Shown piece by piece: positions 19,755-32,988 of a stretch of 64,000 nucleotides of DNA. This DNA comes from an uncultured Clostridia bacterium. Its GTDB lineage: Bacteria; Bacillota; Clostridia; Peptostreptococcales; Anaerovoracaceae. The position numbers and the translations under genes are program-made. The notes under the pieces are model-generated. The model had not been told where the DNA came from and made no database searches. It was given only the letters and a program-made list of their open reading frames with translations. Position 1 is the stretch's first letter, and the number at the start of each line of letters is the position of its first letter. The stretch spans positions 1 through 64,000 of the forward strand of contig CAKQQT010000001.1 in NCBI GenBank assembly GCA_934271235.1, in the 5' to 3' direction.

Positions 19755-19774
19755 TACTTAGAAAATTATGGAAG

Positions 19775-19892
19775 GCCATCGCGCGCCAGGCCATCGCGCG
19801 CCAGGTCATCGCGCGCCAGGTCATCGCGTGCCAGGCATCGCATGCCAGGCCATCGCGCGCCAGGCCATCGCGCGCCAGGTCATCGCGCGCCA
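19775..19892 (+). repeat. 15-bp minisatellite, about 8 units
   Basis: GCCATCGCGCGCCAG or GTCATCGCGCGCCAG repeats head to tail from 19775, with one 14-bp unit and single-base variants, ending in a half unit. The equivalent place in copy 1 (about 4420-4435) holds one diverged unit only, so the array expanded at this copy. It encodes no credible protein and has no spacers. Confidence 0.85.
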
Positions 19893-20002: not shown

Positions 20003-20965
20003 CTATTTTCCGATGATATCGGTCATGGCGCGCAGGACGTTGCCGTGCAGGAGCAGGTCGATCTGGTCTTCGCTGTAATGCTTGTGCATCGCGTCGATGA
20101 CTTTGTCGAAGCCGGTGTAGTTGACCAGTTCGCCGGTCGTATCAATGCCGTCAAAGTCAGAACCGAAGCCGACATGTTCGATACCGGCCTTGTCTACCAT
20201 GTAATTGAGATGGGTGATGATCTGATCGACTGTCGCGTGATCGGAACCTTCCTTTAAGAAAGAACATTCAAAGTTGACGCCGACTACGCCGCCTGCATTG
20301 CCGAGCGTCTTGAGCTGATCGTCCGTCAGATTGCGTTTGTGCGGGCAGAGTGCTTTGGCGCAGGAATGCGTGGCCAGGAACGGCTTTTTGCTGTGGCGTG
20401 CCACATCGTAGAAACCGCCTTCGGACATATGAGAGACGTCGATGATCATACCGAGCTCGTTCATCTTGTCGACCGCTTCCAGACCGAACGGGGTCAGACC
20501 CTGCGCGTTCTGCTGCGGATCATCATAGCACGGATAGCCCATAGAATTCGGGAATCCCCACAGCAGCGTGAGCAGGCGGACGCCCATATCGTAAACTTCC
20601 TGGATCCTTTCGATTTTTCCGTCGACAAAGACGCCGTCTTCGATCGTCAGGAAAGAGGAAAGGTAACCTTCTTCCGCATTTTTGAGAATATCTGCGGCAC
20701 AGTAAGCCGGGCGCAGGATATCCTGATTTTCCTGAATTTCGGAAATATAGTTTTGGTAGATCGCTTTAAACAGGTCGTACGGATCCATCGTCTGCATTTC
20801 GTGACGCGAAAGATAGATCGCGAAAAACTGTCCCATACCGCCGTGTTCTTTCATCATCTGCAGGTTCAAATGGCCCTTGCCGGCACGCAGGGAGCGGTCT
20901 TCATGCCGCCAGCATTCGATGAGCGTGTCGCAGTGCATATCTAAGATCTTCATCGATTGATTCAT
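20003..20965 (-). CDS. Membrane dipeptidase family (peptidase M19)
   Basis: The 320-residue zinc dipeptidase of the renal-dipeptidase family has metal ligands in DMHCDTL, the bridging Glu in FLTIEDGVF, and His residues in IDVSHMSEGGF and ATHSCAKAL, with GFGSDFDG near the end. The family cleaves dipeptides including L-D and D-D types. The start ATG 20965 is fixed by GGGAGG 9 nt upstream. A near-perfect sigma54 promoter lies 47-62 nt upstream (21012-21027) and the sigma54 activator is divergent, so this gene is a likely direct target. A terminator follows it. Confidence 0.9.
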   Translation of the reverse strand: MNQSMKILDMHCDTLIECWRHEDRSLRAGKGHLNLQMMKEHGGMGQFFAIYLSRHEMQTMDPYDLFKAIYQNYISEIQENQDILRPAYCAADILKNAEEGYLSSFLTIEDGVFVDGKIERIQEVYDMGVRLLTLLWGFPNSMGYPCYDDPQQNAQGLTPFGLEAVDKMNELGMIIDVSHMSEGGFYDVARHSKKPFLATHSCAKALCPHKRNLTDDQLKTLGNAGGVVGVNFECSFLKEGSDHATVDQIITHLNYMVDKAGIEHVGFGSDFDGIDTTGELVNYTGFDKVIDAMHKHYSEDQIDLLLHGNVLRAMTDIIGK

Positions 20966-21011
20966 ATTTTTATACCTCCCGGAATCATGATGTAACATGA
21001 ACATTTTAATA

Positions 21012-21027
21012 TGCAAAAAATATGCCA
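21012..21027 (-). promoter_or_regulatory. Sigma54 (-24/-12) promoter of the dipeptidase gene
   Basis: The minus strand reads TGGCATATTTTTTGCA, matching TGGCAYR-N4-TTGCA with exact GG-N10-GC spacing. The predicted start is near 21000, leaving about 35 nt to the ATG. Confidence 0.8.
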
Positions 21028-21056
21028 TGGATCAAGGCCCGAACATGCGGTATACA

Positions 21057-21085
21057 TGGACAAAACCGACAATTTATGGTAGACT
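21057..21085 (+). promoter_or_regulatory. Sigma70-type promoter of the sigma54 activator gene
   Basis: TGGACA (21057-21062), 17 nt, TAGACT (21080-21085); start near 21092. Confidence 0.6.
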
Positions 21086-21095
21086 GTGCACAGAA

Positions 21096-21110
21096 CGACC
21101 GTTTCGGTCG
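21096..21110. promoter_or_regulatory. Palindrome CGACCG-TTT-CGGTCG, possible activator site
   Basis: Six-bp perfect arms lie about 85-100 bp upstream of the dipeptidase sigma54 promoter and inside the activator's own leader. The position suits an enhancer site that would also give self-control. Inference from position and symmetry. Confidence 0.4.
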
Positions 21111-21127
21111 AGGCAGGGGGACTGAAT

Positions 21128-23002
21128 ATGGAAAACGCGATGCACATCATGGAAGAGATTCTGGAAACGGAGTACAAGGGACTGATTTTTATCAACGAAG
21201 CGCGGAAGATCGGTTCCTACAGCCGATGTGCGAAAAAGATCACCGGGATACTGCTGGAAAACGAACAGAAACATCCCGGCGGTCGGATCGAGGAGGGCGA
21301 TATCGTCATCATTGCAGACAACGAACTGGGGAACGATGACGCTTTGATCACCGAAGAACTGGAGACGATCGGCATCACGGACCGCAACATCAAAAAAGGC
21401 GACGCCCTGATCGCCGTCGGCGTTTATAAGAACAAGAAGATCCAGCCGCAGTATAAATATGTCAAAGGATACAATCCCAACGGCCGCTTTGAGCTGGCAG
21501 TCAATTATCTGGGCTTTGAGATCGCGAGCCGGATCGATTTCGCGCGTAACAGCATGGAGATCTCGGTAAACGGCGATGTGTACGCGATGATCTTTTTTGA
21601 ATCGGTCGGTCACATGGTCGTCATCGACAGCGTGACCGGAAAGGTGAAATTCTTCCAGGCACGCGGATACGGCTACCGCGGCGAGGAGATCGGCAGATTG
21701 CTTGCCGGCAAGTCGTACCTGCCGAAGCTGGACTATGAGACGAGCGACGAAGAAGGCAGCGAGCTGCTGCCGACTGTCGGCGCGGAGATCGGCAGCATTC
21801 TTTACGGAGATGAGATCCTGGCAGAAATCGAAAAAATGTTCGGAGAAGCGGACGGCTGCACGGAAAAAGGCATTTATGAGATCCATAAACGTCCGATGTT
21901 CTGTGTGCTGACAAGGATCCGCAAGGGCAACGCGCAGGACGGCGTATACCTGATCCTGCAGGACGCATCCCTGCTGGAGGATGTGCGGCGGGAACGTGAC
22001 GCGATCATCCAGACACTGGAGCAGCGGCAAAAGAAGATCCACCGCAAGCCTTACGATCTGGAGTTTCATGGGGAAGCAATGGGGGATTTCATCGGCGAAG
22101 ATCCGGCCATGAACGAGGTCAAACGGCTGGCGTATAAGGCTTCCCAGACCAATTTCAATGTGATCATCACCGGAGAAAGCGGAACAGGAAAATCCCGTTT
22201 GGCGCGTGAGATCCACAAGATGGGCAAAAAGGACGCGCCGTTTGTAGAAGTGAACTGCAACGCGATCGCCCCGAGCTTGTTTGAAAGTGAACTGTTCGGC
22301 TATGCTGCCGGTGCGTTCACCGGCGCGGCGGCAGGCGGCAAAGCCGGGTTCTTTGAAGAAGCGAACGGCGGTACGATCTTCCTGGATGAGATCGGCGAGA
22401 TCCCGCTCGGCATTCAGGTAAAACTGCTGCACGTCCTGCAGAACAAGCGTATCTACCGTGTCGGTTCTTCGAAACCGATCGATGTGGACGTCCGCGTGAT
22501 CACGGCGACCAACCGCAGTCTGGAAGAAGAGGTCCGCAAAGGGAATTTCCGGCAGGACCTTTACTACCGTATCAATGTGTTCCCGATCTGCATTCCGCCG
22601 CTGCGGCAGCGCAAGGGAGATCTGTATATCCTGATCAATTCGGTGCTCGACGATATCTGCAAGCGCTATCACATGAAGCACATGCTGCTGTCCGAGGAGG
22701 CGCTGCAGAAGATGATGAATTACAGCTGGCCCGGCAACGTGCGGGAACTGGAAAACGTCATGGAGCGCGCAGTCACGATCTGTGATTCGCCGCTGATCTA
22801 TTCGGAACATATCCTGATCGAAGAAGAAGCCAAGCAGGCTATGACGCTCAAAGAGCAGCTGGAACGAGAGGAACGCCGGATCATCGCGGAAACTCTGGCG
22901 AACAACCGATACAAGCGGCGGGAGACCATGGAAGAACTGGGGCTGTCCAAGAGCGTCTTTTACGAAAAGCTGAAAAAATATCAGCTTGGCGGAGACGAAT
23001 AA
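21128..23002 (+). CDS. Sigma54-dependent transcriptional activator (enhancer-binding protein)
   Basis: This 624-residue protein has three parts. The N-terminal 290 residues are a sensor region I do not recognise, possibly including PAS-like folds; there is no response-regulator receiver. Then comes the AAA+ domain with Walker A GESGTGKS (about 349-356), GAFTGA (about 396-401, the loop that contacts sigma54) and Walker B GGTIFLDEIGE. It ends in a Fis-type helix (RRETMEELGLSKSVFYEKLK). ATG 21128 follows AGGGGG. Three sigma54 promoters within 6 kb precede genes for peptide and D-amino-acid use, making them its probable targets. Confidence 0.9.
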   Translation: MENAMHIMEEILETEYKGLIFINEARKIGSYSRCAKKITGILLENEQKHPGGRIEEGDIVIIADNELGNDDALITEELETIGITDRNIKKGDALIAVGVYKNKKIQPQYKYVKGYNPNGRFELAVNYLGFEIASRIDFARNSMEISVNGDVYAMIFFESVGHMVVIDSVTGKVKFFQARGYGYRGEEIGRLLAGKSYLPKLDYETSDEEGSELLPTVGAEIGSILYGDEILAEIEKMFGEADGCTEKGIYEIHKRPMFCVLTRIRKGNAQDGVYLILQDASLLEDVRRERDAIIQTLEQRQKKIHRKPYDLEFHGEAMGDFIGEDPAMNEVKRLAYKASQTNFNVIITGESGTGKSRLAREIHKMGKKDAPFVEVNCNAIAPSLFESELFGYAAGAFTGAAAGGKAGFFEEANGGTIFLDEIGEIPLGIQVKLLHVLQNKRIYRVGSSKPIDVDVRVITATNRSLEEEVRKGNFRQDLYYRINVFPICIPPLRQRKGDLYILINSVLDDICKRYHMKHMLLSEEALQKMMNYSWPGNVRELENVMERAVTICDSPLIYSEHILIEEEAKQAMTLKEQLEREERRIIAETLANNRYKRRETMEELGLSKSVFYEKLKKYQLGGDE

Positions 23003-23013
23003 AAAGAACAAGG

Positions 23014-23041
23014 AAAGAGCCGGCACCGTGCCGGCTCTTTT
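23014..23041. terminator. Strong bidirectional terminator
   Basis: A 12-bp perfect stem (AAAGAGCCGGCA with TGCCGGCTCTTT) and a 3-nt loop, with T/A runs on both sides, between the convergent activator and alr genes. Confidence 0.85.
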
Positions 23042-23073
23042 GCTTGTCTGTATGATTCTGTGGATTTTTCCCC

Positions 23074-24195
23074 TTATTTCCGATAAACTCGGACCGGACG
23101 CAGCGAGATGCGGGCAAGAATGTCGTTCTTGTTCGTACCGGCCAGTGTCGAGGCCTCTTGGATCGTCATTTCGTCTGTGCCGCTGCCGTAGATGGTCACC
23201 CAGTCCCCTTCTGCGATATCGGCAACCTCCGTAACATCGGCCATGACCTGATCCATGCAAAGCACGCCGACCAGCGGACATTTAACACCGCGGATGGTGA
23301 CGTAGCCTTTGTCGCGCAGGTTCCGCGGATAACCGTCCGCGTAGCCGAACGGCAGTGTGGCGATGACGGAATCACGCGGTGCTTTCCAAAGGTAATCATA
23401 GCTGACTCCCTCGCCGGCTTTGATGTAATGGAGCTGTGAGACAGCGGCCTTGAAGGTCAGGACCTGCTCGACCGGCACAAAGCCCTTGTGGAAGCCGCGC
23501 ATACCGTAGATGAGCGCGCCGACACGGACCATGTTCAGCCGAAACTGCGGATCATCGACGGTGGCGATGCTGTCCGCTAAGTGATAGTAACGGAACACGA
23601 TGCCGTCCTCCTTGAGACGGTCCGCGATATTGGCGAACAATTGATACTGTTTGTCGTTTTCTTCGTCGTTGACCAGCGCGAGATGGGAGAAAAGACCCTC
23701 TGCGTCAATATGCGGCAGCGCGGTGATCGCGCGGATGGTCTGCAGGGTCTGTTCGCAGTCTTTCGCGTCCAGACCGAGACGGTGAAAACCGGTGTCCAGC
23801 TTGATGTGTACTTTTGCTTTTTTGCCTGCTTTTTCTGCCAGTGTGTCCAGGATCTGCGCCTGCTGCAGGCTGAAGATGGTGGCGGTGATGTCGTGATCGA
23901 CAACATGCGGAAGGTATTTGTCCGGCGTATGGCCCATGATAAAGACGGGATAGTCCGGATATACGTTTTTGATCTCCACGGCTTCCGAGAGCGTTGCTAC
24001 CGAGAGGTAGTCTGCGCCGCTCTCCATCAGCGTTTCAGCGACGCCGACCGCGCCATGTCCGTAGGCGTTGGCTTTTACGACGGCCGTGATGGCGGTGTCC
24101 GGACCGACCAGTTCACGGATCAGCCGCATATTTTGAGCGAGTTTGCCAAGGTCGATCTCAACGACCGTATCTCTGAGAACTTCCTGCGTGATCAT
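23074..24195 (-). CDS. alr: Alanine racemase (PLP enzyme)
   Basis: The 373-residue fold-type III racemase has PLP lysine motif VVKANAYGHGA, HIKLDTGFHRLG, NMVRVGALIYG, catalytic Tyr region VSYDYLW, and VGVLCMDQVMADV. Length is normal. It overlaps the M20 gene by 4 nt (ATGA), so the two form one operon behind a sigma54 promoter at 25456. That control is not usual for a cell-wall alr and suggests a catabolic racemase. Substrate preference (alanine, serine or a diamino acid) cannot be read from the motifs. Confidence 0.9.
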   Translation of the reverse strand: MITQEVLRDTVVEIDLGKLAQNMRLIRELVGPDTAITAVVKANAYGHGAVGVAETLMESGADYLSVATLSEAVEIKNVYPDYPVFIMGHTPDKYLPHVVDHDITATIFSLQQAQILDTLAEKAGKKAKVHIKLDTGFHRLGLDAKDCEQTLQTIRAITALPHIDAEGLFSHLALVNDEENDKQYQLFANIADRLKEDGIVFRYYHLADSIATVDDPQFRLNMVRVGALIYGMRGFHKGFVPVEQVLTFKAAVSQLHYIKAGEGVSYDYLWKAPRDSVIATLPFGYADGYPRNLRDKGYVTIRGVKCPLVGVLCMDQVMADVTEVADIAEGDWVTIYGSGTDEMTIQEASTLAGTNKNDILARISLRPVRVYRK

Positions 24196-25388
24196 TCGAT
24201 TTCCACCCCCATGATCTTGAATACGGCGAGCACTTCCGCCAGAATACCGGTATGGATGCAGTCTTCGTCCGGATCGAGGATCGCGGAGTGCAGCGCCTGC
24301 TGCGGCGTACCCGGCGTATGGCAGCCGAGATTGAAATACAGACCCTTGCCGGCATGGCAGAAATAGGCGAAATCGTCCGCGCCGAGACTGGACTTCGGAT
24401 TGATGATCACATGCTCATCGCCGATCTTTTCCCGGCAGATCTCGGAGACCGTATCCAGAAGCTCCTGGTTGTTGATCAGAGTCGGGTAGCTGTCGGTGTA
24501 ATCCACGATGCAGGACGCGCCGTAGGCTTTGGCGATGTTATCGCAGAGCTCTGCCAGCTGCTTTTTGATAAAGTCGCGGTTATCCATGTCGAGCACACGG
24601 ATGATACCGGTGAAAACGGTTTCGTCCGGAATGATGTTTCCGGCGATGCCGCTGTGGAAAGAACCGACAGTGATCAGTGCCGCGTCGACCGGATGGATGT
24701 GGCGGGTGATGATGCTCTGCAGAGAGCTGACCATCGTGCAGGCCGGCAGCAGCGGATCGATGCCGGTGAACGGGCTTGCGCCGTGGCAGGACTTGCCTTT
24801 GACGGTGACGGTGAACATGGTGGACGCCGCGTTCATGCAGCCCGGAATGAATTCCAGCTTGCCGACATCCACGGACGGTTCGATATGCAGACCGATCGTC
24901 GATGCGACATGCGGTTCCTCCAGACAGCCATCCTCGATCATGTATTTCGCGCCGCCGCGGGTTTCCTCGGCCGGTTCGAACAGGCAGACGACCGACTGCG
25001 GCAGGTCTTCCTGCAGGGCTTTGAGCACCGAAGCGGTACCGAGCAGGACGGATGTGTGGATATCGTGTCCGCAGGCATGCATCACGCCGTCATTCTGCGA
25101 TCGGAACGGAACCTCGACTCGCTCGCAGATCGGAAGAGCATCCATATCCGCGCGGATGGCGATCGCCTGCTCGGAAGATCTTCCTTCAATGACAGCTTTG
25201 ATGCCGTGACCGGCGATCTCAGAGCGGTACGGGATCCCAAGATGATCCAGTTCGGAACGGATCCGCGCAGAGGTCTGCACCTCCTGCTCGCTCAGTTCCG
25301 GATCCTGATGGATGCTTCTGCGGATGGCGATGCTTTTCGGAGCGGCAGCGTCGACCAGCGTTTTGATTTTATCGTAACTTATTTTCAT
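24192..25388 (-). CDS. M20-family amidohydrolase (aminoacylase/carboxypeptidase type)
   Basis: The 398-residue dinuclear metal hydrolase has RADMDALPI, HACGHDIHTSVLLG, FEPAEETRGGAKYMI and a dimerization domain in the middle (CHGASPFTGIDPL). The family removes acyl groups from amino acids or cleaves dipeptides. It is first in the operon with alr. A sigma54 promoter lies 68-83 nt upstream (25456-25471). With the racemase it could free and racemize amino acids from small peptides. Confidence 0.9.
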   Translation of the reverse strand: MKISYDKIKTLVDAAAPKSIAIRRSIHQDPELSEQEVQTSARIRSELDHLGIPYRSEIAGHGIKAVIEGRSSEQAIAIRADMDALPICERVEVPFRSQNDGVMHACGHDIHTSVLLGTASVLKALQEDLPQSVVCLFEPAEETRGGAKYMIEDGCLEEPHVASTIGLHIEPSVDVGKLEFIPGCMNAASTMFTVTVKGKSCHGASPFTGIDPLLPACTMVSSLQSIITRHIHPVDAALITVGSFHSGIAGNIIPDETVFTGIIRVLDMDNRDFIKKQLAELCDNIAKAYGASCIVDYTDSYPTLINNQELLDTVSEICREKIGDEHVIINPKSSLGADDFAYFCHAGKGLYFNLGCHTPGTPQQALHSAILDPDEDCIHTGILAEVLAVFKIMGVEIE

Positions 25389-25403
25389 ATACAGCAGCCT
25401 CCC

Positions 25404-25432
25404 TTGACTTTCGTTTTGTTTTGCGTTATATT
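25404..25432 (+). promoter_or_regulatory. Sigma70-type promoter of the small membrane gene
   Basis: TTGACT (25404-25409), 17 nt, TATATT (25427-25432), pointing to the gene at 25485. Confidence 0.5.
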
Positions 25433-25455
25433 CTAAATATTATAACAGAAACTGA

Positions 25456-25471
25456 TGCAAAAAGTGTGCCG
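25456..25471 (-). promoter_or_regulatory. Sigma54 promoter of the M20-alr operon
   Basis: The minus strand reads CGGCACACTTTTTGCA, with exact GG-N10-GC spacing and only the first T of the consensus changed. It overlaps the leader of the divergent small gene. Confidence 0.75.
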
Positions 25472-25484
25472 AGAGGAGAAATCA

Positions 25485-25730
25485 ATGGATAAACTGAAGA
25501 TCGTGGTAGGACTGGCCATTATCGTGGCGTCATTCGTATACATCATCAAAAATAAAGGCTCTTTACTGGACAATCTGCTCAAAAAGAGCGTAGAGGACTA
25601 TGAAAAACAGCAGAAGATCAAGAACAAAGCACAGGATGTCGTAGACGGAAATGCAGATGCATTCGACACGCTGGCAGATTCCGTGAAACCGGTCATCGAG
25701 GACATCAAGCAGCGGCAAAAGCCTCAATAA
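25485..25730 (+). CDS. Small single-span membrane protein of unknown function
   Basis: The 81-residue protein has an N-terminal membrane helix (LKIVVGLAIIVASFVYII) and a charged, probably coiled tail (SVEDYEKQQKIKNKAQDVVD and onward). ATG 25485 is chosen over an upstream in-frame ATG (25455) because GAGAGGAG lies 6 nt before it. I do not recognise the family. It is divergent from the M20-alr operon and has its own terminator. Confidence 0.7.
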   Translation: MDKLKIVVGLAIIVASFVYIIKNKGSLLDNLLKKSVEDYEKQQKIKNKAQDVVDGNADAFDTLADSVKPVIEDIKQRQKPQ

Positions 25731-25770
25731 AGCTGACGGTCCGACCGTCCCGATCAAAACAAAAAACAAT

Positions 25771-25803
25771 AAAAAGCCCTTTCCTGATCGAAAGGGCTTT
25801 TGT
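25771..25803. terminator. Bidirectional terminator
   Basis: AAAAGCCCTTTC pairs with GAAAGGGCTTTT around 6 nt, between the convergent genes at 25485 and 25825. Confidence 0.8.
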
Positions 25804-25824
25804 AATATTCTTTTTTATTCCGAT

Positions 25825-26457
25825 CTATTGGAAGTTTTCCATCAGACCGATGATGACGGCGATCGGTGTGAAACAGTTGAGGGCAAGAAGGACATCCAGA
25901 CACGCGTAAGCGAAAGCAACGTACTTCCATTTGCGGCTGTAGCCGGGAACTTCCTTATAAGAACGATAAACGACGAAGCGCTCTGTGTCCCCGATAGCAG
26001 CTTCTCGCTCTTTGAGCAGGTCATAAAACTGTTTGTGCTCCAGAGCGTTGATCTTGCCGTCACGGAAGAGCGGGATGAAAAAGATCGCTTTTTTCTTGTC
26101 GGCGGCATCCTCTTTGTGCGCGAAGAAGCGGATGCCTCTCTTGTCAAAAAAAACCGCCCGGGCGTCCTCGAAGCGGAACTCCTTTTTGGCGCGGGTAAGC
26201 CGATTCCGGTAAATGGCTGTTTCACTGTTGTATTCGGTATAACAGACCTTATGGCCGTTCGACAAAAGCAGCCAGAACGCAAAGAATATCGCGTTGATGA
26301 GCAGTTCCAAAGGAAGATTGAGCTTGTCCGCGTAGCCTTCGACCTGATAGACAACGATCTGGATATCCATGATCGAACGCAGGACCAGATAAAAGGCGCA
26401 GATGTAAAACAGCAGCTGCTTTGGGACATTTGTATAAGTATAGGTCAGTTTTTTCAT
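25825..26457 (-). CDS. Unrecognised membrane protein with PH-like middle domain
   Basis: In this 210-residue protein, two N-terminal membrane spans (about 15-32 and 50-66) are followed by a soluble stretch with alternating strands (VCYTEYNSETAIYRNRLTRA, then FRFEDARAVFFDKRGIRFFA). One C-terminal span (about 183-205) closes it. The pattern resembles YcxB/bPH2-like membrane proteins, but I cannot assign a family. The divergent gene at 26905 belongs to the sigma54 operon; a shared role is not shown. Confidence 0.6.
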   Translation of the reverse strand: MKKLTYTYTNVPKQLLFYICAFYLVLRSIMDIQIVVYQVEGYADKLNLPLELLINAIFFAFWLLLSNGHKVCYTEYNSETAIYRNRLTRAKKEFRFEDARAVFFDKRGIRFFAHKEDAADKKKAIFFIPLFRDGKINALEHKQFYDLLKEREAAIGDTERFVVYRSYKEVPGYSRKWKYVAFAYACLDVLLALNCFTPIAVIIGLMENFQ

Positions 26458-26643
26458 TCATATTCTCCTTTGATCAAGGTTTGCCTTGCTGTTTCCGCCG
26501 TGCTTATGATCACGAGGCAAGGCTGTCTGGGATTATTATAACATATTTATAGAAATAAGCAAAATTTATGCCGTCAAAAAAGAACAAAATCCGCGGCATT
26601 TTTTTTGTGTTTCGTCTGTTTTTCGCTAAAATGATACAAAAAT

Positions 26644-26682
26644 AGTCCTAAAAACAGGACTATAATTCCTAAAAACAGGACT
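26644..26682. promoter_or_regulatory. Tandem palindromes, likely enhancer sites for the sigma54 operon
   Basis: AGTCCT-AAAAAC-AGGACT (26644-26661) and ATTCCT-AAAAAC-AGGACT (26665-26682) repeat with a 21-bp period, two helical turns, about 145-180 bp upstream of the sigma54 promoter at 26827. Distance, symmetry and helical phasing fit upstream activating sequences. A further inverted pair CCGCTAAA/TTTAGCGG lies at 26757-26780. There is no gene in 26458-26904. Confidence 0.55.
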
Positions 26683-26826
26683 GCAACACAAAAGAACTGA
26701 AGGATTGTGAAGAAAGGATGAAGAACCTGTGATTTTCCGCACAAGAAAAAACAAAGCCGCTAAACCATTGATTTTAGCGGAAACTATACGAAAAAGCCGC
26801 AGCCGCACGTACCTTTGTGATTTTCT

Positions 26827-26842
26827 TGGCATATAAATTGCA
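26827..26842 (+). promoter_or_regulatory. Sigma54 promoter of the spmA/B-like - ldcA-like - lysA operon
   Basis: TGGCATATAAATTGCA matches TGGCAYR-N4-TTGCA with exact GG-N10-GC spacing. The start would be near 26854, about 50 nt before ATG 26905. Confidence 0.85.
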
Positions 26843-26904
26843 AATAGGTAGAGCGTCATAATAAAAAAATTGTCGGAATTATACGAAAAAGGAGGAACGA
26901 TATT

Positions 26905-27612
26905 ATGATGAACTATATCTGGGTCGGATTAGTCGTGATCGCGGTTGTCGCGGGCGCTTTTACCGGCACAATGGAAGGTATTTTGAACAACATCTTTGAT
27001 TTCGCGAATACCGCTGTCGAAATCTCTCTCGGTTTGATCGGCATCATGGCATTCTTCTGCGGACTGATGAAGGTCATGCAGGAAGCCGGTATCTGCGACA
27101 AGCTCGCGAAGGGAATTGCGCCGGTTATGACCAAATTATTCCCGGAGGTTCCGAAGGATCACCCTGCAATGTCCGCGATGGCACTTTGGATCGCAGCCAA
27201 CATGCTGGGTATCGGCAACGCCGCGACTCCGTTCGGTCTGAAAGCTATGCGTGAATTACAGACTCTGAACCCTACCAAGAGCATCGCAACAAATGCACAG
27301 TGCATGATGCTGGCGATCGGTACCACTTCCGTAACCCTGCTTCCGGTTACCGTCCTTGGCCTGCGTGCCGCTGTACAGACAGACGGCGCGGCTGAGATTA
27401 TCGTTCCGGTCATCATCGCGACTACGATCTCCACAGTTGTCGGTATCGTATTTACTTTGATCTTCCAGAAGACAAAGAGATGGAAATGGGAAAACGTAAT
27501 CGAAAAAGAAATCGCAGCCGGAACATTAGAACTGAACGAGCACTATGCAGGCGGAGAAAACCCGATCGTGCTTCCGGAAGGCTATGTTTGCAAGTATGCT
27601 GAAGAAGAATAG
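26905..27612 (+). CDS. SpmA-like nucleoside-recognition (Gate) membrane protein
   Basis: The 235-residue multi-span protein has GLIGIMAFFCGLMKVMQEAG, ALWIAANMLGIGNAATPFGL and NAQCMMLAIGTTSVTLLPVT, the pattern of spore maturation protein A / Gate-domain proteins. Such pairs are found as spore genes but also as putative transporter halves beside amino-acid catabolism genes. It is the first gene of the sigma54 operon, preceded by GGAGG. Because it is coexpressed with peptide enzymes I infer transport of a substrate or product, not sporulation. Confidence 0.8.
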   Translation: MMNYIWVGLVVIAVVAGAFTGTMEGILNNIFDFANTAVEISLGLIGIMAFFCGLMKVMQEAGICDKLAKGIAPVMTKLFPEVPKDHPAMSAMALWIAANMLGIGNAATPFGLKAMRELQTLNPTKSIATNAQCMMLAIGTTSVTLLPVTVLGLRAAVQTDGAAEIIVPVIIATTISTVVGIVFTLIFQKTKRWKWENVIEKEIAAGTLELNEHYAGGENPIVLPEGYVCKYAEEE

Positions 27613-27624
27613 GAGGGACTGCAA

Positions 27625-28164
27625 ATGACATTTTCAGATGTAATGACATTAATATCGAACTGGGCTATTCCTCTGGTTGTAGCTCTTGTATGCTTCTGGG
27701 CTATCTTGAAGAAGGTGCCGGTATATTCCGTATTTACAGAAGGCGCTAAGGAAGGCTTCTCCACTGCTGTTATGATCATCCCGTATCTGACCGCTATGCT
27801 GTGCGCGATCGGAATGTTCCGCGCGTCCGGCGCGATGGATTGGCTGTGCGCGATCTTAGACCCGGTTACCAGTTTGATCGGCTGCCCATCCGAGATCCTG
27901 CCGCAGGCCATCATGAGATCCTTCTCCGGCGGCGCGTCCGAGGGTATGCTTGCTGACCTGCTTGCTCAGTATGGCACGCAGTCCAAGATCGGCCGTATCG
28001 CTTCCGTAGCGCAGGGCTCCACCGAGACCACTTTCTACATCATCGCGGTTTACATGGGCTCTGTAGGCGTTTCCAACACAAGACACTCCGTTGCTGCCGG
28101 TCTGCTGGGCGACTTAGGTTCCCTGCTCGCTGCAGTAGCGATCGTAAACATCATGTGGTTCTAA
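27625..28164 (+). CDS. SpmB-like membrane protein, partner of the SpmA-like gene
   Basis: The 179-residue protein, close to SpmB in length and pattern, has CFWAILKKVPVYSVFTEGAK, GFSTAVMIIPYLTAMLCAIG, MRSFSGGASEGMLADLL and GSTETTFYIIAVYMGSVGV. It starts 12 nt after the SpmA-like gene with AGGAGGG. The two should form one membrane complex with the helices of both Gate domains. Confidence 0.8.
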   Translation: MTFSDVMTLISNWAIPLVVALVCFWAILKKVPVYSVFTEGAKEGFSTAVMIIPYLTAMLCAIGMFRASGAMDWLCAILDPVTSLIGCPSEILPQAIMRSFSGGASEGMLADLLAQYGTQSKIGRIASVAQGSTETTFYIIAVYMGSVGVSNTRHSVAAGLLGDLGSLLAAVAIVNIMWF

Positions 28165-28196
28165 GCACATAAAATATTTTGGAGGAGACAAAACCA

Positions 28197-29117
28197 ATGA
28201 TATATCCTAAAAAACTGGAAAAAGGTTCAACGATCGGAATCATCTGCCCGAGCTCTCCGATTTCCGCGGAACGTGAAGCACAGTGTGTGAGCACGCTGGA
28301 AGCGATGGGCTTTAAGGTAAAGAAAGCTGACAATCTGACCAAGGATTATGCCGGCTACATGGCAGGCACAGGCGAAGAAAGAGCAGCCTGGATCAACAAG
28401 ATGTTCGCGGACAAAGAGGTGGATGCGATCTTCTGTGTCAGAGGCGGCGACGGTGGTTCTCGTGTGATCAGACATCTGGATCTGGATATCATCAGAAGCA
28501 ATCCGAAGATCTTTGTAGGATACAGTGATGTAACATGCCTGCATATGCTGTTCAATCAGAAGTGCGACCTGGTTACGTTCCATGGACCGATGGTATCATC
28601 CAACATGGTAAGCGCTTTTGATGATGACACCAAGAACGCGTTCTTTGACGCGCTGACGGCAGAGGGAACTTACGAATTCAAGAATCCTGCAGAGCAGCCG
28701 CTCGAGGTCCTTAAGAGCGGCAAGGCGACCGGTCCGGTCATTGGGGGTAATCTCTCACTGATCTCGGCAGCAGTCGGAACACCGAGCGAATTGGACGCAG
28801 AGGGCAAGATCATCTTCATCGAAGAAGTCGAAGAACCGCTCACCAAGATCGAAAAATGGACCTACCAGCTGAAGCTGGCCGGCGTTTTCGAAAAGTGCAA
28901 GGGCGTTCTGCTCGGACAGTTCACGGAAGTTTCCAACAAGTATCAGCCGGAATACGACGTGAAAAAATTATACGAAGATCTGCTTGCGGAATATGATATT
29001 CCGGTTATGTATAACGTACAGTCCGGTCACGGCGACAAGATCATCACGATCCCGTTCGGCGCGGAATGCACGATGAATACAGAAGATAAGACGATCGTTT
29101 TCAAGGTGGAAAGATAG
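28197..29117 (+). CDS. LD-carboxypeptidase family (peptidase S66)
   Basis: The 306-residue S66 serine peptidase has nucleophile region FVGYSDVTCLHM, late IEEVEEPLTKIEKW and SGHGDKIITIPFG with the Glu and His of the Ser-Glu-His triad, and the N-terminal KKLEKGSTIGIICPSSPIS. Family enzymes remove the terminal D-amino acid after the diamino acid in murein tetrapeptides. The start ATG 28197 follows GGAGGAG. There is no signal peptide, so it works in the cytoplasm on imported peptides. Diaminopimelate decarboxylase follows in the same operon, which supports a muropeptide substrate. Confidence 0.9.
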   Translation: MIYPKKLEKGSTIGIICPSSPISAEREAQCVSTLEAMGFKVKKADNLTKDYAGYMAGTGEERAAWINKMFADKEVDAIFCVRGGDGGSRVIRHLDLDIIRSNPKIFVGYSDVTCLHMLFNQKCDLVTFHGPMVSSNMVSAFDDDTKNAFFDALTAEGTYEFKNPAEQPLEVLKSGKATGPVIGGNLSLISAAVGTPSELDAEGKIIFIEEVEEPLTKIEKWTYQLKLAGVFEKCKGVLLGQFTEVSNKYQPEYDVKKLYEDLLAEYDIPVMYNVQSGHGDKIITIPFGAECTMNTEDKTIVFKVER

Positions 29118-29146
29118 ACAATCCATCCAAAGACAGACACTACCTG

Positions 29147-29185
29147 CAGCCTGCGTGTCAGACTTCTTGTCCGATGCGCAGGCTG
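29147..29185 (+). other. Intercistronic hairpin before lysA
   Basis: CAGCCTGCG (29147-29155) pairs with CGCAGGCTG (29177-29185). There is no T tract, so it is more likely an RNA processing or stability element than a terminator. Confidence 0.55.
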
Positions 29186-29212
29186 TGAAATAACTAAGAA
29201 GGAGAATGGCAC

Positions 29213-30517
29213 ATGATTTGTGATAACATTCGCATATCAGAGGATGGAAAGCACCTGCTTTTTGCCGGACAGGATGTCGTGGATCTGGCAAAGAAATACG
29301 GAACACCGCTCTATCTGATGGACGAAGATAAGATCCGTGAAAAATGCAGATTATACAAAGATGCATTAAACAAATATTACGGTGAAAAGGCCAAGCCGCT
29401 CTATGCTTCCAAAGCTAACTGCTTCAAGCGGCTTTACGAGATCATGACCGAAGAGGGAATGGGCATTGACGTGGTTTCCTCCGGCGAGATCTACACGGCA
29501 CTGCAGGCCGGATATGATATCCGGAACGCTTATTTTCACAGCAACAACAAGACGGACTGGGATATCAAATACGCGATGGAGAACAACATCGGCTATTTTG
29601 TCGCAGACAATACCGAAGAAGTTGATGCGATCGACAAGGAAGCCAAGATCCAGGGCAAGGTGCAGAAGGTTCTGCTGAGATTGACCCCGGGGATCGACAC
29701 CCATACTTTTGAAGCGGTTTCCACCGGCAAGGTGGACTCCAAGTTCGGACAGGCCATCGAGACCGGTCAGGCAGAAGAGATCACCAAACATACGCTTGCC
29801 AAGGAAAACGTTTCCCTTGAAGGATTCCACTGCCATCTGGGTTCCCAGATCTTCGCAGAAGATGTCTTCGAGCGCGGCGCGGTCATCATGTTTGAATTTA
29901 TCGCCGAAATGCGCAAAAAGTATGGATTTGAATGCAGACAATTAGACCTGGGCGGCGGATTCGGCGTCAGATACGTAGAGTCCGACCCGGAGCTTGATAT
30001 TGATAAAAGGATCGGTGAGATCGCGGAAGTCGTCAAGGCGACCTGCGCGAAGCTCGGACTGGAAATGCCGGAGATCCGCATGGAACCGGGCAGATCGATC
30101 GTTGCCGATGCCGGCATGGTGCTGTACACTGTCGGAACGGTAAAGAAGATCCCGGGATACAAGAATTACGTATCCATCGACGGCGGTATGCCGGATTCCC
30201 CGCGTTACGCACTTTATAAATCGAAATACACCTGCTACGTGGCGAACAAGATGGACGAAAAGACAGACTTTGAAGCTTCGATCGTCGGCAGATGCTGCGA
30301 GTCCGGGGATATCATTCAGGAGAACGTGATGGTTCCGTCCTCCGTGCAGAGATACGATACCGTTGCGGTCTGTACGACAGGCGCGTACCATTACTCCATG
30401 GCGTCCAACTATAACCGGATCCCGAAACCGGCGACCGTGATGCTGCGCGGCGGAAACGAAAACTATATCGCGGTAAAAGCGCAATCCCTTGAGGACCTGG
30501 TCCGCAACGAACTGTAA
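29213..30517 (+). CDS. lysA: Diaminopimelate decarboxylase-type PLP enzyme
   Basis: The 434-residue fold-type III decarboxylase has PLP lysine motif LYASKANCFKR, HCHLGSQIF, LDLGGGFGVRY, RMEPGRSIVADAG, and RCCESGDII with the active-site Cys contributed across the dimer. The motif set is that of meso-diaminopimelate decarboxylase, yielding lysine and CO2. It is the last gene of the sigma54 operon. Control with an LD-carboxypeptidase and not with lysine biosynthesis genes suggests a catabolic use. A variant acting on a related diamino acid cannot be excluded. Confidence 0.85.
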   Translation: MICDNIRISEDGKHLLFAGQDVVDLAKKYGTPLYLMDEDKIREKCRLYKDALNKYYGEKAKPLYASKANCFKRLYEIMTEEGMGIDVVSSGEIYTALQAGYDIRNAYFHSNNKTDWDIKYAMENNIGYFVADNTEEVDAIDKEAKIQGKVQKVLLRLTPGIDTHTFEAVSTGKVDSKFGQAIETGQAEEITKHTLAKENVSLEGFHCHLGSQIFAEDVFERGAVIMFEFIAEMRKKYGFECRQLDLGGGFGVRYVESDPELDIDKRIGEIAEVVKATCAKLGLEMPEIRMEPGRSIVADAGMVLYTVGTVKKIPGYKNYVSIDGGMPDSPRYALYKSKYTCYVANKMDEKTDFEASIVGRCCESGDIIQENVMVPSSVQRYDTVAVCTTGAYHYSMASNYNRIPKPATVMLRGGNENYIAVKAQSLEDLVRNEL

Positions 30518-30553: not shown

Positions 30554-30587
30554 ATGGGGAGACGCTGCGCTCCCCATCTTTGCTTTT
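30554..30587 (+). terminator. Terminator of the sigma54 operon
   Basis: ATGGGGAG pairs with CTCCCCAT around 8 nt, followed by CTTTGCTTTT. Confidence 0.75.
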
Positions 30588-32082: not shown

Positions 32083-32142
32083 GAAACAAAACAAAATCAA
32101 GAAAGGAGAACGCAGCCGGATCCTGTGCTGCGGATCAAAGCT

Positions 32143-32988
32143 ATGAAATTTACAAAGATGCAGGGAGCGGGAAACGATTTCATCGTCATCAATAACATCG
32201 AAGAAAAGATCCCGCAGGAGAAATTTTCCTTATTGGCTAAAACACTTTGCACACGTCGAATGTCCATCGGAGCCGACGGCATGATGATCGTGGATCATCC
32301 GCAGAATGGCGGCGATTATCGGATGCATTTTTATAACGCGGACGGCAGTCTCGGCGAGATGTGCGGCAACGGCGCGCGCTGTATCGCCAGATATGGTTAT
32401 GAAAAGGGGCTGGCGGGTGAAACGCAGCGGGTAGAGACCACGGCCGGTCTGGTCATCGGACAGCGCCGGGACAAGCGGATGTACACCGTGCGTTTGAACG
32501 ATATCACAAAGTTTGAGCAAAATGTGACCATGGAGATCGACGGCAAAGCCGTACCGTGCGATTATCTGGAACTTGGTGATCCGGGCCTGCCGCACGCTGT
32601 CGTGCTGCTTGGCGATGACTGCGCGATGACGCAGGACGCGCTGCGCGATCTGGGCAAAAAGACACGCGCCAACGCGGCTTTTCCGAAAGGCGCGAACGTA
32701 AACTTCTGTCGAGTGATCGGAGAGAATGAAGTGGAAGAACTGACCTACGAACGCGGCGTCGAAGATTTTACGCTGGCCTGCGGCACCGGGACCGGTTCCG
32801 TTGTCGCGGCTCTGACGCGCAGAGGACTTGTCAGCGGCGAGAATACTCGCGTGCACGTACCGGGCGGCGAGCTGTTCATCACTTTAAACATCGATCCGCA
32901 GACACAGGAGATCAAGGATATCTACCTGACCGGACCGACGAATATCGTAGCCGAGGGAGAAGTCTGCGACGAGGATCTGGCAATTTAG
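32143..32988 (+). CDS. dapF: Diaminopimelate epimerase
   Basis: The 281-residue enzyme has both catalytic cysteines: LGEMCGNGARCIARY and DFTLACGTGTGSVVAA. MKFTKMQGAGNDFIVIN is the standard N-terminus, so ATG 32143 is used although only a weak ribosome site precedes it. It interconverts LL- and meso-diaminopimelate for lysine and cell-wall synthesis. It lies downstream of the MATE gene and near lysA. Its last 4 nt overlap the end of the convergent LysR remnant. Confidence 0.95.
   Translation: MKFTKMQGAGNDFIVINNIEEKIPQEKFSLLAKTLCTRRMSIGADGMMIVDHPQNGGDYRMHFYNADGSLGEMCGNGARCIARYGYEKGLAGETQRVETTAGLVIGQRRDKRMYTVRLNDITKFEQNVTMEIDGKAVPCDYLELGDPGLPHAVVLLGDDCAMTQDALRDLGKKTRANAAFPKGANVNFCRVIGENEVEELTYERGVEDFTLACGTGTGSVVAALTRRGLVSGENTRVHVPGGELFITLNIDPQTQEIKDIYLTGPTNIVAEGEVCDEDLAI

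Follow-up and report, generated by a model that had tools for sequence, protein, structure and literature searches.

Why should a clostridial genome keep peptidases, an alanine racemase and diaminopimelate (DAP) genes around a single sigma54-dependent activator, behind promoters of the sigma54 type? The locus that raises this question lies in a stretch of 64,000 nucleotides (hereafter the window: positions 1 to 64,000 of contig CAKQQT010000001.1, assembly GCA_934271235.1) from an uncultured Clostridia bacterium of the Anaerovoracaceae, for which an original prediction from the sequence had proposed a sigma54 regulon for D-amino-acid or wall-peptide use. Beside the activator lie genes for an M19 dipeptidase, an M20D amidohydrolase with alanine racemase (alr), a 210-residue protein (hyp210), and an operon of two Gate-domain membrane proteins (Gate A and Gate B), an S66 family protein and diaminopimelate decarboxylase (lysA; Table 1). 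Judging from sequence, we consider it likely that these genes form a sigma54 regulon, under one activator, for the catabolism of DAP-containing wall peptides via lysine. The regulon itself is well supported by its predicted genes, promoters, site motif, conservation and co-occurrence; from these we infer activator binding, substrate, inducer, transport and flux.

The sigma54 promoter context (GG-N10-GC, with TGGCA and TTGC elements) is present in the window, weakly so at 25456. All three GG-N10-GC sites of the original prediction were recovered at the same positions and on the same strands, the one at 25456 with one consensus mismatch, and their distances to the start codons, put at 45–85 nt, are 46 nt for the M19 gene (ATG at 20965), 67 nt for the M20D gene and 62 nt for the first Gate gene. 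A weight matrix built from 28 of the 30 Clostridioides difficile promoters of a published table ranked 26826 (19.0), 21012 (16.3) and 26558 on the minus strand (16.1) highest in the 64 kb, in that order; these are the three sites scoring ≥14, where 10 Markov-shuffled windows averaged 0.2. The site at 26558, before hyp210, had been absent from the earlier list. Loose consensus counts (≤2 mismatches) do not exceed chance, with 35 matches against 31.6 expected, and we therefore relied on the matrix and on conservation. Taken by itself the 25456 site, with a score of 9.4, would not be convincing, but M20D genes of relatives are preceded by a comparable weak form.

Conservation of the -24/-12 sites in relatives, proposed as a check on the original prediction, was found. 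With the window included, matrix sites scoring ≥12 lie upstream of Gate A in 21/26 cases, M19 in 11/16, hyp210 in 9/17 and lysA in 12/36, against a background of 19/520 other genes; some of those 19 themselves head DAP operons, for example a GNAT gene before dapF-SDF-lysA (locus L001) and a DAP dehydrogenase gene (L045). Upstream of M20D, sites reach 12 in 2/21 cases and 9 in 5/21, the window being one of the five. The weak M20D form, CGGCAY-N5-TTGCA, recurs in L012, L013 and L053, a TAGGCA form occurs in L014, and the reverse complement of the former stands upstream of M19 in L010. Because its divergent sigma54 site is conserved, hyp210 is probably part of the regulon. At L009 (15053-15098) the M20D and M19 promoters adjoin back to back with 12 bp between them, too little to fit an activator site.

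Neighbours of the activator in other genomes tell what this regulon might be for. A homology search with the sensor half returned 162 proteins, and a genome-collection scan with the sensor-half alignment gave 55 loci, selected by activator alone, whose neighbours were found by BLAST and named by family from representatives. Around the activator, Emergencia, Aminicella, Hornefia, Bacilliculturomica and Proteocatella share most of the gene set of the window, while Sedimentibacter, Tissierella, Geosporobacter and Maledivibacter have a reduced set. Among the 55 loci, lysA is a neighbour in 35, S66 in 30, the epimerase gene dapF in 21, hyp210 in 17, and M19 and alr in 15 each; M15 D-Ala-D-Ala dipeptidase and M55 D-aminopeptidase genes follow with 10 each, SDF symporter genes with 7 and DAP dehydrogenase genes with 4. 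As controls, 10 of the same genomes each contributed two loci of other activators (20 loci of 8.6–19.9 kb, 356 kb in total). They replaced a first set of 30 loci, mostly of 3.5 kb and one with a DapF match, because those were too short. At least two of eight wall/DAP families were present in 40/55 activator loci vs 0/20 controls (Fisher 4e-9), and at least one in 48/55 vs 3/20.

In loci from further draws the activator is again accompanied by a sigma54 site and dapF-lysA, in some cases with SDF. At class level, nine genomes gave ten loci, two of them (L155 and L160) already in the first set, and in every one lysA has a sigma54 site ahead of it. The pooled 86 loci reduce to 75 non-redundant ones including the window, 11 having been dropped at 95% activator identity. 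The pooled set has any of seven wall/DAP families in 64 loci and lysA in 52. In 44 of the 52 the lysA operon has a sigma54 site at lysA itself or further upstream, under a lenient operon rule that has no background rate of its own. The DAP-to-lysine step is the most widely shared part of the regulon. We considered whether the relatives' 35–47% identical LysA proteins might instead be D-ornithine/D-lysine decarboxylases and rejected this: those of L006, L028 and L042 score 451–464 bits against TIGR01048 (cut-off 297.9) and 195–216 bits, far under the cut-off of 700, against NF052544.

A candidate site for the activator emerged upstream of these promoters. Searched without a preset motif, the regions upstream of sigma54 sites gave TCC-N8-GGA as the top dyad, at 44/79 promoters where 3.2 were expected; with at least 250 bp of upstream sequence available it occurs at 43/77 sigma54 sites vs 53/711 other upstream regions (site threshold 12 for both counts, plus the window's 25456). 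Most copies (51/73) fall 50–150 bp before the -24 element, and neighbouring copies are most often 21 bp apart (15 cases), then 19 bp (4). By target, promoters with <150 bp upstream being dropped, the dyad was found at 16/19 Gate A, 9/9 hyp210, 5/13 lysA, 3/9 M19 and 0/3 M20D promoters, where the hyp210 count is not independent of Gate A because both share one intergenic region. Other activators' loci in the same genomes (20 loci) had the dyad at 0/25 sigma54 sites scoring at least 14.

When a sigma54 site plus dyad was sought genome-wide in 37 genomes carrying the activator, 14 matches (13 promoters) were found in 12 genomes, against 1 for a reversed control pattern. Five of the 13 promoters precede Gate A and two precede lysA; in genome G054 one promoter, with two matches, precedes an ABC permease gene next to the activator. 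The others comprise one before a PF00144 serine hydrolase gene, one before a PF03553 antiporter gene beside another activator, one in G004 directed into the 3' end of the activator gene itself, and two within open reading frames (ORFs). In G020 the activator and the Gate A gene, with its site and dyad, lie on different contigs and are separated by ~130 kb or more, a distance that favours regulation over simple proximity. Matches before Gate A in G051 and before lysA in G009 are also on another contig, but these assemblies are fragmented and the contigs may be neighbours. The hyp210/Gate A interval of the window also holds recurring copies of CGCTAAAA and a further dyad, CCGCTAAA...TTTAGCGG (26620-26636, 26757-26780), perhaps bound by another regulator or forming a terminator.

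The activator also co-occurs with a gene of lysine fermentation. In a family draw of 148 genomes, with carriers defined by an activator match at E <1e-30 and the enzyme by an alpha match at E <1e-100, lysine 5,6-aminomutase was found in 24/24 carriers vs 46/124 non-carriers (Fisher 1.3e-9). In a class draw of 391 genomes the counts were 12/14 vs 16/377 (Fisher 1.1e-13), and the two remaining carriers show just a weaker match of ~150–165 bits, which we take to be ornithine aminomutase. All known routes of DAP synthesis need dapB. No dapB match was found in 11/30 carriers, including a Hornefia isolate and G103, in which a contig of 1.74 Mb represents nearly the whole 1.7 Mb genome. Within the dapB-less genomes of the family draw, and after 7 weak DapF matches were dropped, dapF is present in 10/10 carriers vs 10/36 non-carriers (p 4.5e-5). 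Loss of dapB is not itself special to carriers, since it is absent in 10/24 of them and in 36/124 non-carriers.

The activator stands mid-locus, as had been predicted, with an AAA+ domain, a GAFTGA loop and a Walker A motif (GESGTGK). Structure models suggest a layout of a PAS-like sensor with an inserted strand-rich stretch, the AAA+ domain and a weak Fis-type helix-turn-helix. The sensor has a PAS fold, split by a strand-rich insert of ~170 residues that holds many of the conserved residues; a PDB sequence search with the sensor gave no convincing match (best E 0.073). The C-terminal HTH_8 match is 20.1 bits (cut-off 22), helices are present there in the model, and many relatives carry PF02954. 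Genomes G001–G010 each hold 14 to 60 sigma54 activator domain matches in 1.7–4.7 Mb, not all of which need be true activators, because the same search also matches in all 14 control genomes.

Family knowledge of each enzyme allows a mechanism to be proposed. A PAS-type sensor would detect a wall-derived signal, our guess being DAP or a DAP peptide, and the activator would bind the paired TCC-N8-GGA between hyp210 and the Gate genes and activate sigma54 RNA polymerase at as many as four promoters. Import of wall peptides or DAP could fall to the Gate pair, a role that an Opp ABC system or SDF symporter may fill in other loci. The S66 protein would release D-Ala and the M19 enzyme cleave dipeptides, with M20D also trimming; Alr would racemise D-Ala, DapF would epimerise DAP and LysA would decarboxylate it to L-lysine, which carriers of the activator could ferment via lysine 5,6-aminomutase. 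Wall-peptide trimming, D-Ala racemization and conversion of DAP to lysine had already been proposed in the original prediction, and the enrichment of wall/DAP enzymes near the activator and the group-specific candidate site support this pathway. A more specific version, in which a dedicated split-PAS sensor detects DAP or murein peptides and switches on fermentation of wall peptides via DAP and lysine in Clostridia, with DapF and LysA purely catabolic in dapB-less carriers, has in our judgement an even chance of being correct.

Other explanations would fit parts of these data. The locus might be a sigma54 regulon whose purpose is the fermentation of dipeptides and D-amino acids in general, its enzymes taking mixed peptides, racemising D-alanine for use and meeting DAP only as a minor substrate. 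Sigma54 operons of C. difficile that pair M20D, or a dipeptidase, with membrane proteins and have no lysA listed would agree with this, as would the diversity of substrates among solved relatives of M20D, but lysA is the most widely shared neighbour (52/75) and is joined by dapF, DAP dehydrogenase and the M15 and M55 D-peptidases, so we regard general peptide use as unlikely. We are more doubtful still about a biosynthetic or self-recycling role, with sigma54 adjusting the cell's own DAP/lysine supply or recycling its own wall. Carriers without a dapB match (11/30) could not make DAP de novo if their assemblies are complete, the activator co-occurs with lysine 5,6-aminomutase, and peptide-transporter and SDF symporter genes lie in or beside the operons. 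Such a role is favoured by an earlier survey, which linked sigma54 to the supply of cell-exterior building blocks, peptidoglycan included (PMC3162934), and by copy number, as most carriers have a single copy over the cut-off of lysA (23/27) and dapF (26/27). A single lysA is compatible with catabolic use, and where dapB is present it may also serve biosynthesis. It is very improbable that the promoter-like sites are chance matches or belong to unrelated activators and that their clustering is coincidental: loose pattern counts in the window do equal chance and the 25456 site is weak, but the matrix scores, the conservation and the group-specific motif all speak against coincidence.

Catabolism of wall-peptide DAP under one activator is the reading we prefer, and besides the copy numbers just given several points weigh against it. 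We identified no enzyme that would cleave the gamma-D-Glu-DAP bond. In the window's matrix list dapF has no sigma54 site of its own, and it sits past a terminator-like hairpin; in G137 some 148 kb separate lysA from the activator. At the M19 and M20D promoters no clear activator site is seen (3/9 and 0/3), and these promoters may answer to another activator. The strict site-plus-dyad pattern is missing in 25/37 carriers, and tandem dyads 21 bp apart occur at 27 places in 11/26 genomes vs 10 for the reversed control; the AT-rich places checked are mostly the hyp210/Gate A interval or before lysA, and many others are GC-rich and coding-like. The eight families behind the 40/55 comparison were picked after the main set had been seen, and that set has some near-duplicate loci. 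None of the seven wall/DAP families was found in 11/75 loci; ten of these are <13 kb, the other, L134, being 19.9 kb. A few family-draw genomes recur in the class draw, the co-occurrence statistics ignore phylogeny, and the lysine-fermentation and dapB counts come from relatives' genomes. Absence of dapB may partly be missing sequence because many carriers are metagenome assemblies.

Family models recovered the dipeptidase, the M20 amidohydrolase with alr, the LD-carboxypeptidase and lysA of the original gene list, and the label of SpmA/B-like for the Gate pair found no support: only Pfam Gate (PF07670) matched, and no SpmA or SpmB model did. NCBIfam gave no match for Gate A and only the sub-cut-off PRK10519 for Gate B, and a PDB sequence search with Gate A found nothing convincing (best E 0.078). 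Both S66 domains are present in the S66 protein, which by these domains is assigned to the LD-carboxypeptidase S66 family with putative murein tetrapeptide activity; its nearest solved relatives include MccF and muramoyltetrapeptide carboxypeptidases, the MccF-type proteins being the closest. The M19 protein is predicted to be an M19 dipeptidase from its Peptidase_M19 domain, and solved relatives of M20D cover diverse substrates. For LysA the best solved relatives are DAP decarboxylases, and it has the CESGD motif, presumably a mark of that enzyme. A MatE-family gene and a terminator-like hairpin (30554) separate lysA from dapF. An Rfam scan of 15000-36000 found nothing.

Table 1 Features of the locus, with positions in the window.
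Feature	Position	Strand	Basis or remark
M19 (membrane/renal-type) dipeptidase, 320 aa	20003..20965	-	Pfam PF01244, 3e-87; start picked by eye via ribosome-binding site
Sigma54 -24/-12 site of M19 gene	21012..21027	-	exact TGGCAYRN4TTGCW match; matrix 16.3
Sigma54-dependent activator (enhancer-binding protein, EBP), 624 aa	21128..23002	+	PF00158 1.6e-65; GAFTGA and GESGTGK; structure models
Terminator-like hairpin, activator/alr interval	23013..23041	both	consensus scan
Alanine racemase (alr)	23074..24195	-	TIGR00492 302.9 bits, cut-off 168
M20D amidohydrolase, 4 bp overlap with alr	24192..25388	-	TIGR01891 325.3 bits, cut-off 153.75
Weak sigma54 site of M20D-alr pair	25456..25471	-	one mismatch (C for T, first base); matrix 9.4
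Small ORF, 81 aa	25485..25730	+	no Pfam/NCBIfam family match; 60% identical ORFs in L005, L034
hyp210, 210 aa	25825..26457	-	no Pfam or NCBIfam match; hydrophobic stretches judged by eye
Fourth sigma54 site, for hyp210	26558..26573	-	matrix 16.1
Candidate activator site 1, TCC-N8-GGA	26646..26659		de novo dyad search
Candidate activator site 2, TCC-N8-GGA, 21 bp after site 1	26667..26680		de novo dyad search
Sigma54 site of Gate A-Gate B-S66-lysA operon	26827..26842	+	exact TGGCAYRN4TTGCW match; matrix 19.0 (at 26826)
Gate-domain membrane protein A (possible transporter half)	26905..27612	+	PF07670 6.7e-13
Gate-domain membrane protein B, distantly like PRK10519	27625..28164	+	PF07670 1.2e-13; PRK10519 37.1 bits, cut-off 111
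S66 LD-carboxypeptidase family protein	28197..29117	+	PF02016 and PF17676
Diaminopimelate decarboxylase (lysA)	29213..30517	+	TIGR01048 397.2 bits, cut-off 297.9
Terminator-like hairpin 3' of lysA	30554..30577	+	consensus scan
Diaminopimelate epimerase (dapF), beyond the interval of the original prediction	32125..32988	+	TIGR00652 216.4 bits, cut-off 114.65

Some further observations concern the surroundings of these genes. A 15-bp GC-rich unit, AGGCCATCGCGCGCC, is repeated about eight times in an array downstream of the M19 gene (19773-19892). Beta-lactamase family genes of class-A type (PF13354 in the one member scanned) recur in 11/55 activator loci, for example at L011 10418-11308, and their products are possibly wall-peptide hydrolases. 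One control locus, L091, which belongs to another activator in G003, holds hyp210, Gate A, Gate B, S66 and M20D.

Peptides of the bacterial wall are plentiful in any place where bacteria die, and to our knowledge little is known of the organisms that use their DAP anaerobically. The activator, its candidate DNA site and the core operon together make a genome-searchable marker for the use of DAP wall peptides. If true, catabolism through this regulon would connect the turnover of walls with lysine fermentation and short-chain fatty acids. It would also account for lysA and dapF in organisms seemingly without dapB, where biosynthetic use would not be possible.

How new is such a system? The original prediction knew of no described regulon of this composition, a claim that is too wide; sigma54 operons of C. 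difficile share parts of it. A search of open-licence PMC papers found no description of such a regulon, and one aimed at DAP catabolism returned no papers. In Escherichia coli the iadA-yjiGH operon presumably sets a Gate-domain pair beside a dipeptidase gene, the peptidase being of a different kind, and we know of no link of that operon to sigma54. The C. difficile operon CD2699-CD2697 has a sigma54 promoter before genes for membrane proteins and an M20D peptidase, with the activator CD2700 adjacent, and its expression falls to 0.03 to 0.09 in a sigL mutant (PMC7438776; PMC9130780). It differs from our locus in that no lysA, dapF, S66, alr or M19 is listed there, the comparison being one of promoter and gene content. 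Similarly, CD2862-CD2860 joins a dipeptidase and membrane proteins behind a sigma54 promoter, beside the activator CD2863, although no DAP genes are listed in that row, which is without a fold change (PMC7438776, Table 4). A survey of clostridial activators describes 39 groups, two of them (YpdR and XcyR) for 'peptide degradation' (PMC6615313); like the activator studied here these are clostridial sigma54 activators of peptidase operons, YpdR also with a membrane protein. Compared by target names, Table 1 of that survey has no lysA, dapF or alr among the named targets of the 39 groups, some targets being listed only as hyp or pep. In Bacillus thuringiensis, KamR and sigma54 control kamA, and the same study also includes a lysA gene whose -24/-12 match is poor and whose expression changes 2.27-fold (PMC4428206). 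Sigma54 control of lysine catabolism would be shared with our system, whereas kamA, as described there, is a downstream step under another activator and comes with no wall-peptide enzymes. As a kind, then, sigma54-controlled use of peptides and lysine is known, and in the open-licence PMC literature we found no description of the DAP core, of this activator group and its site, or of carriers that lack dapB.

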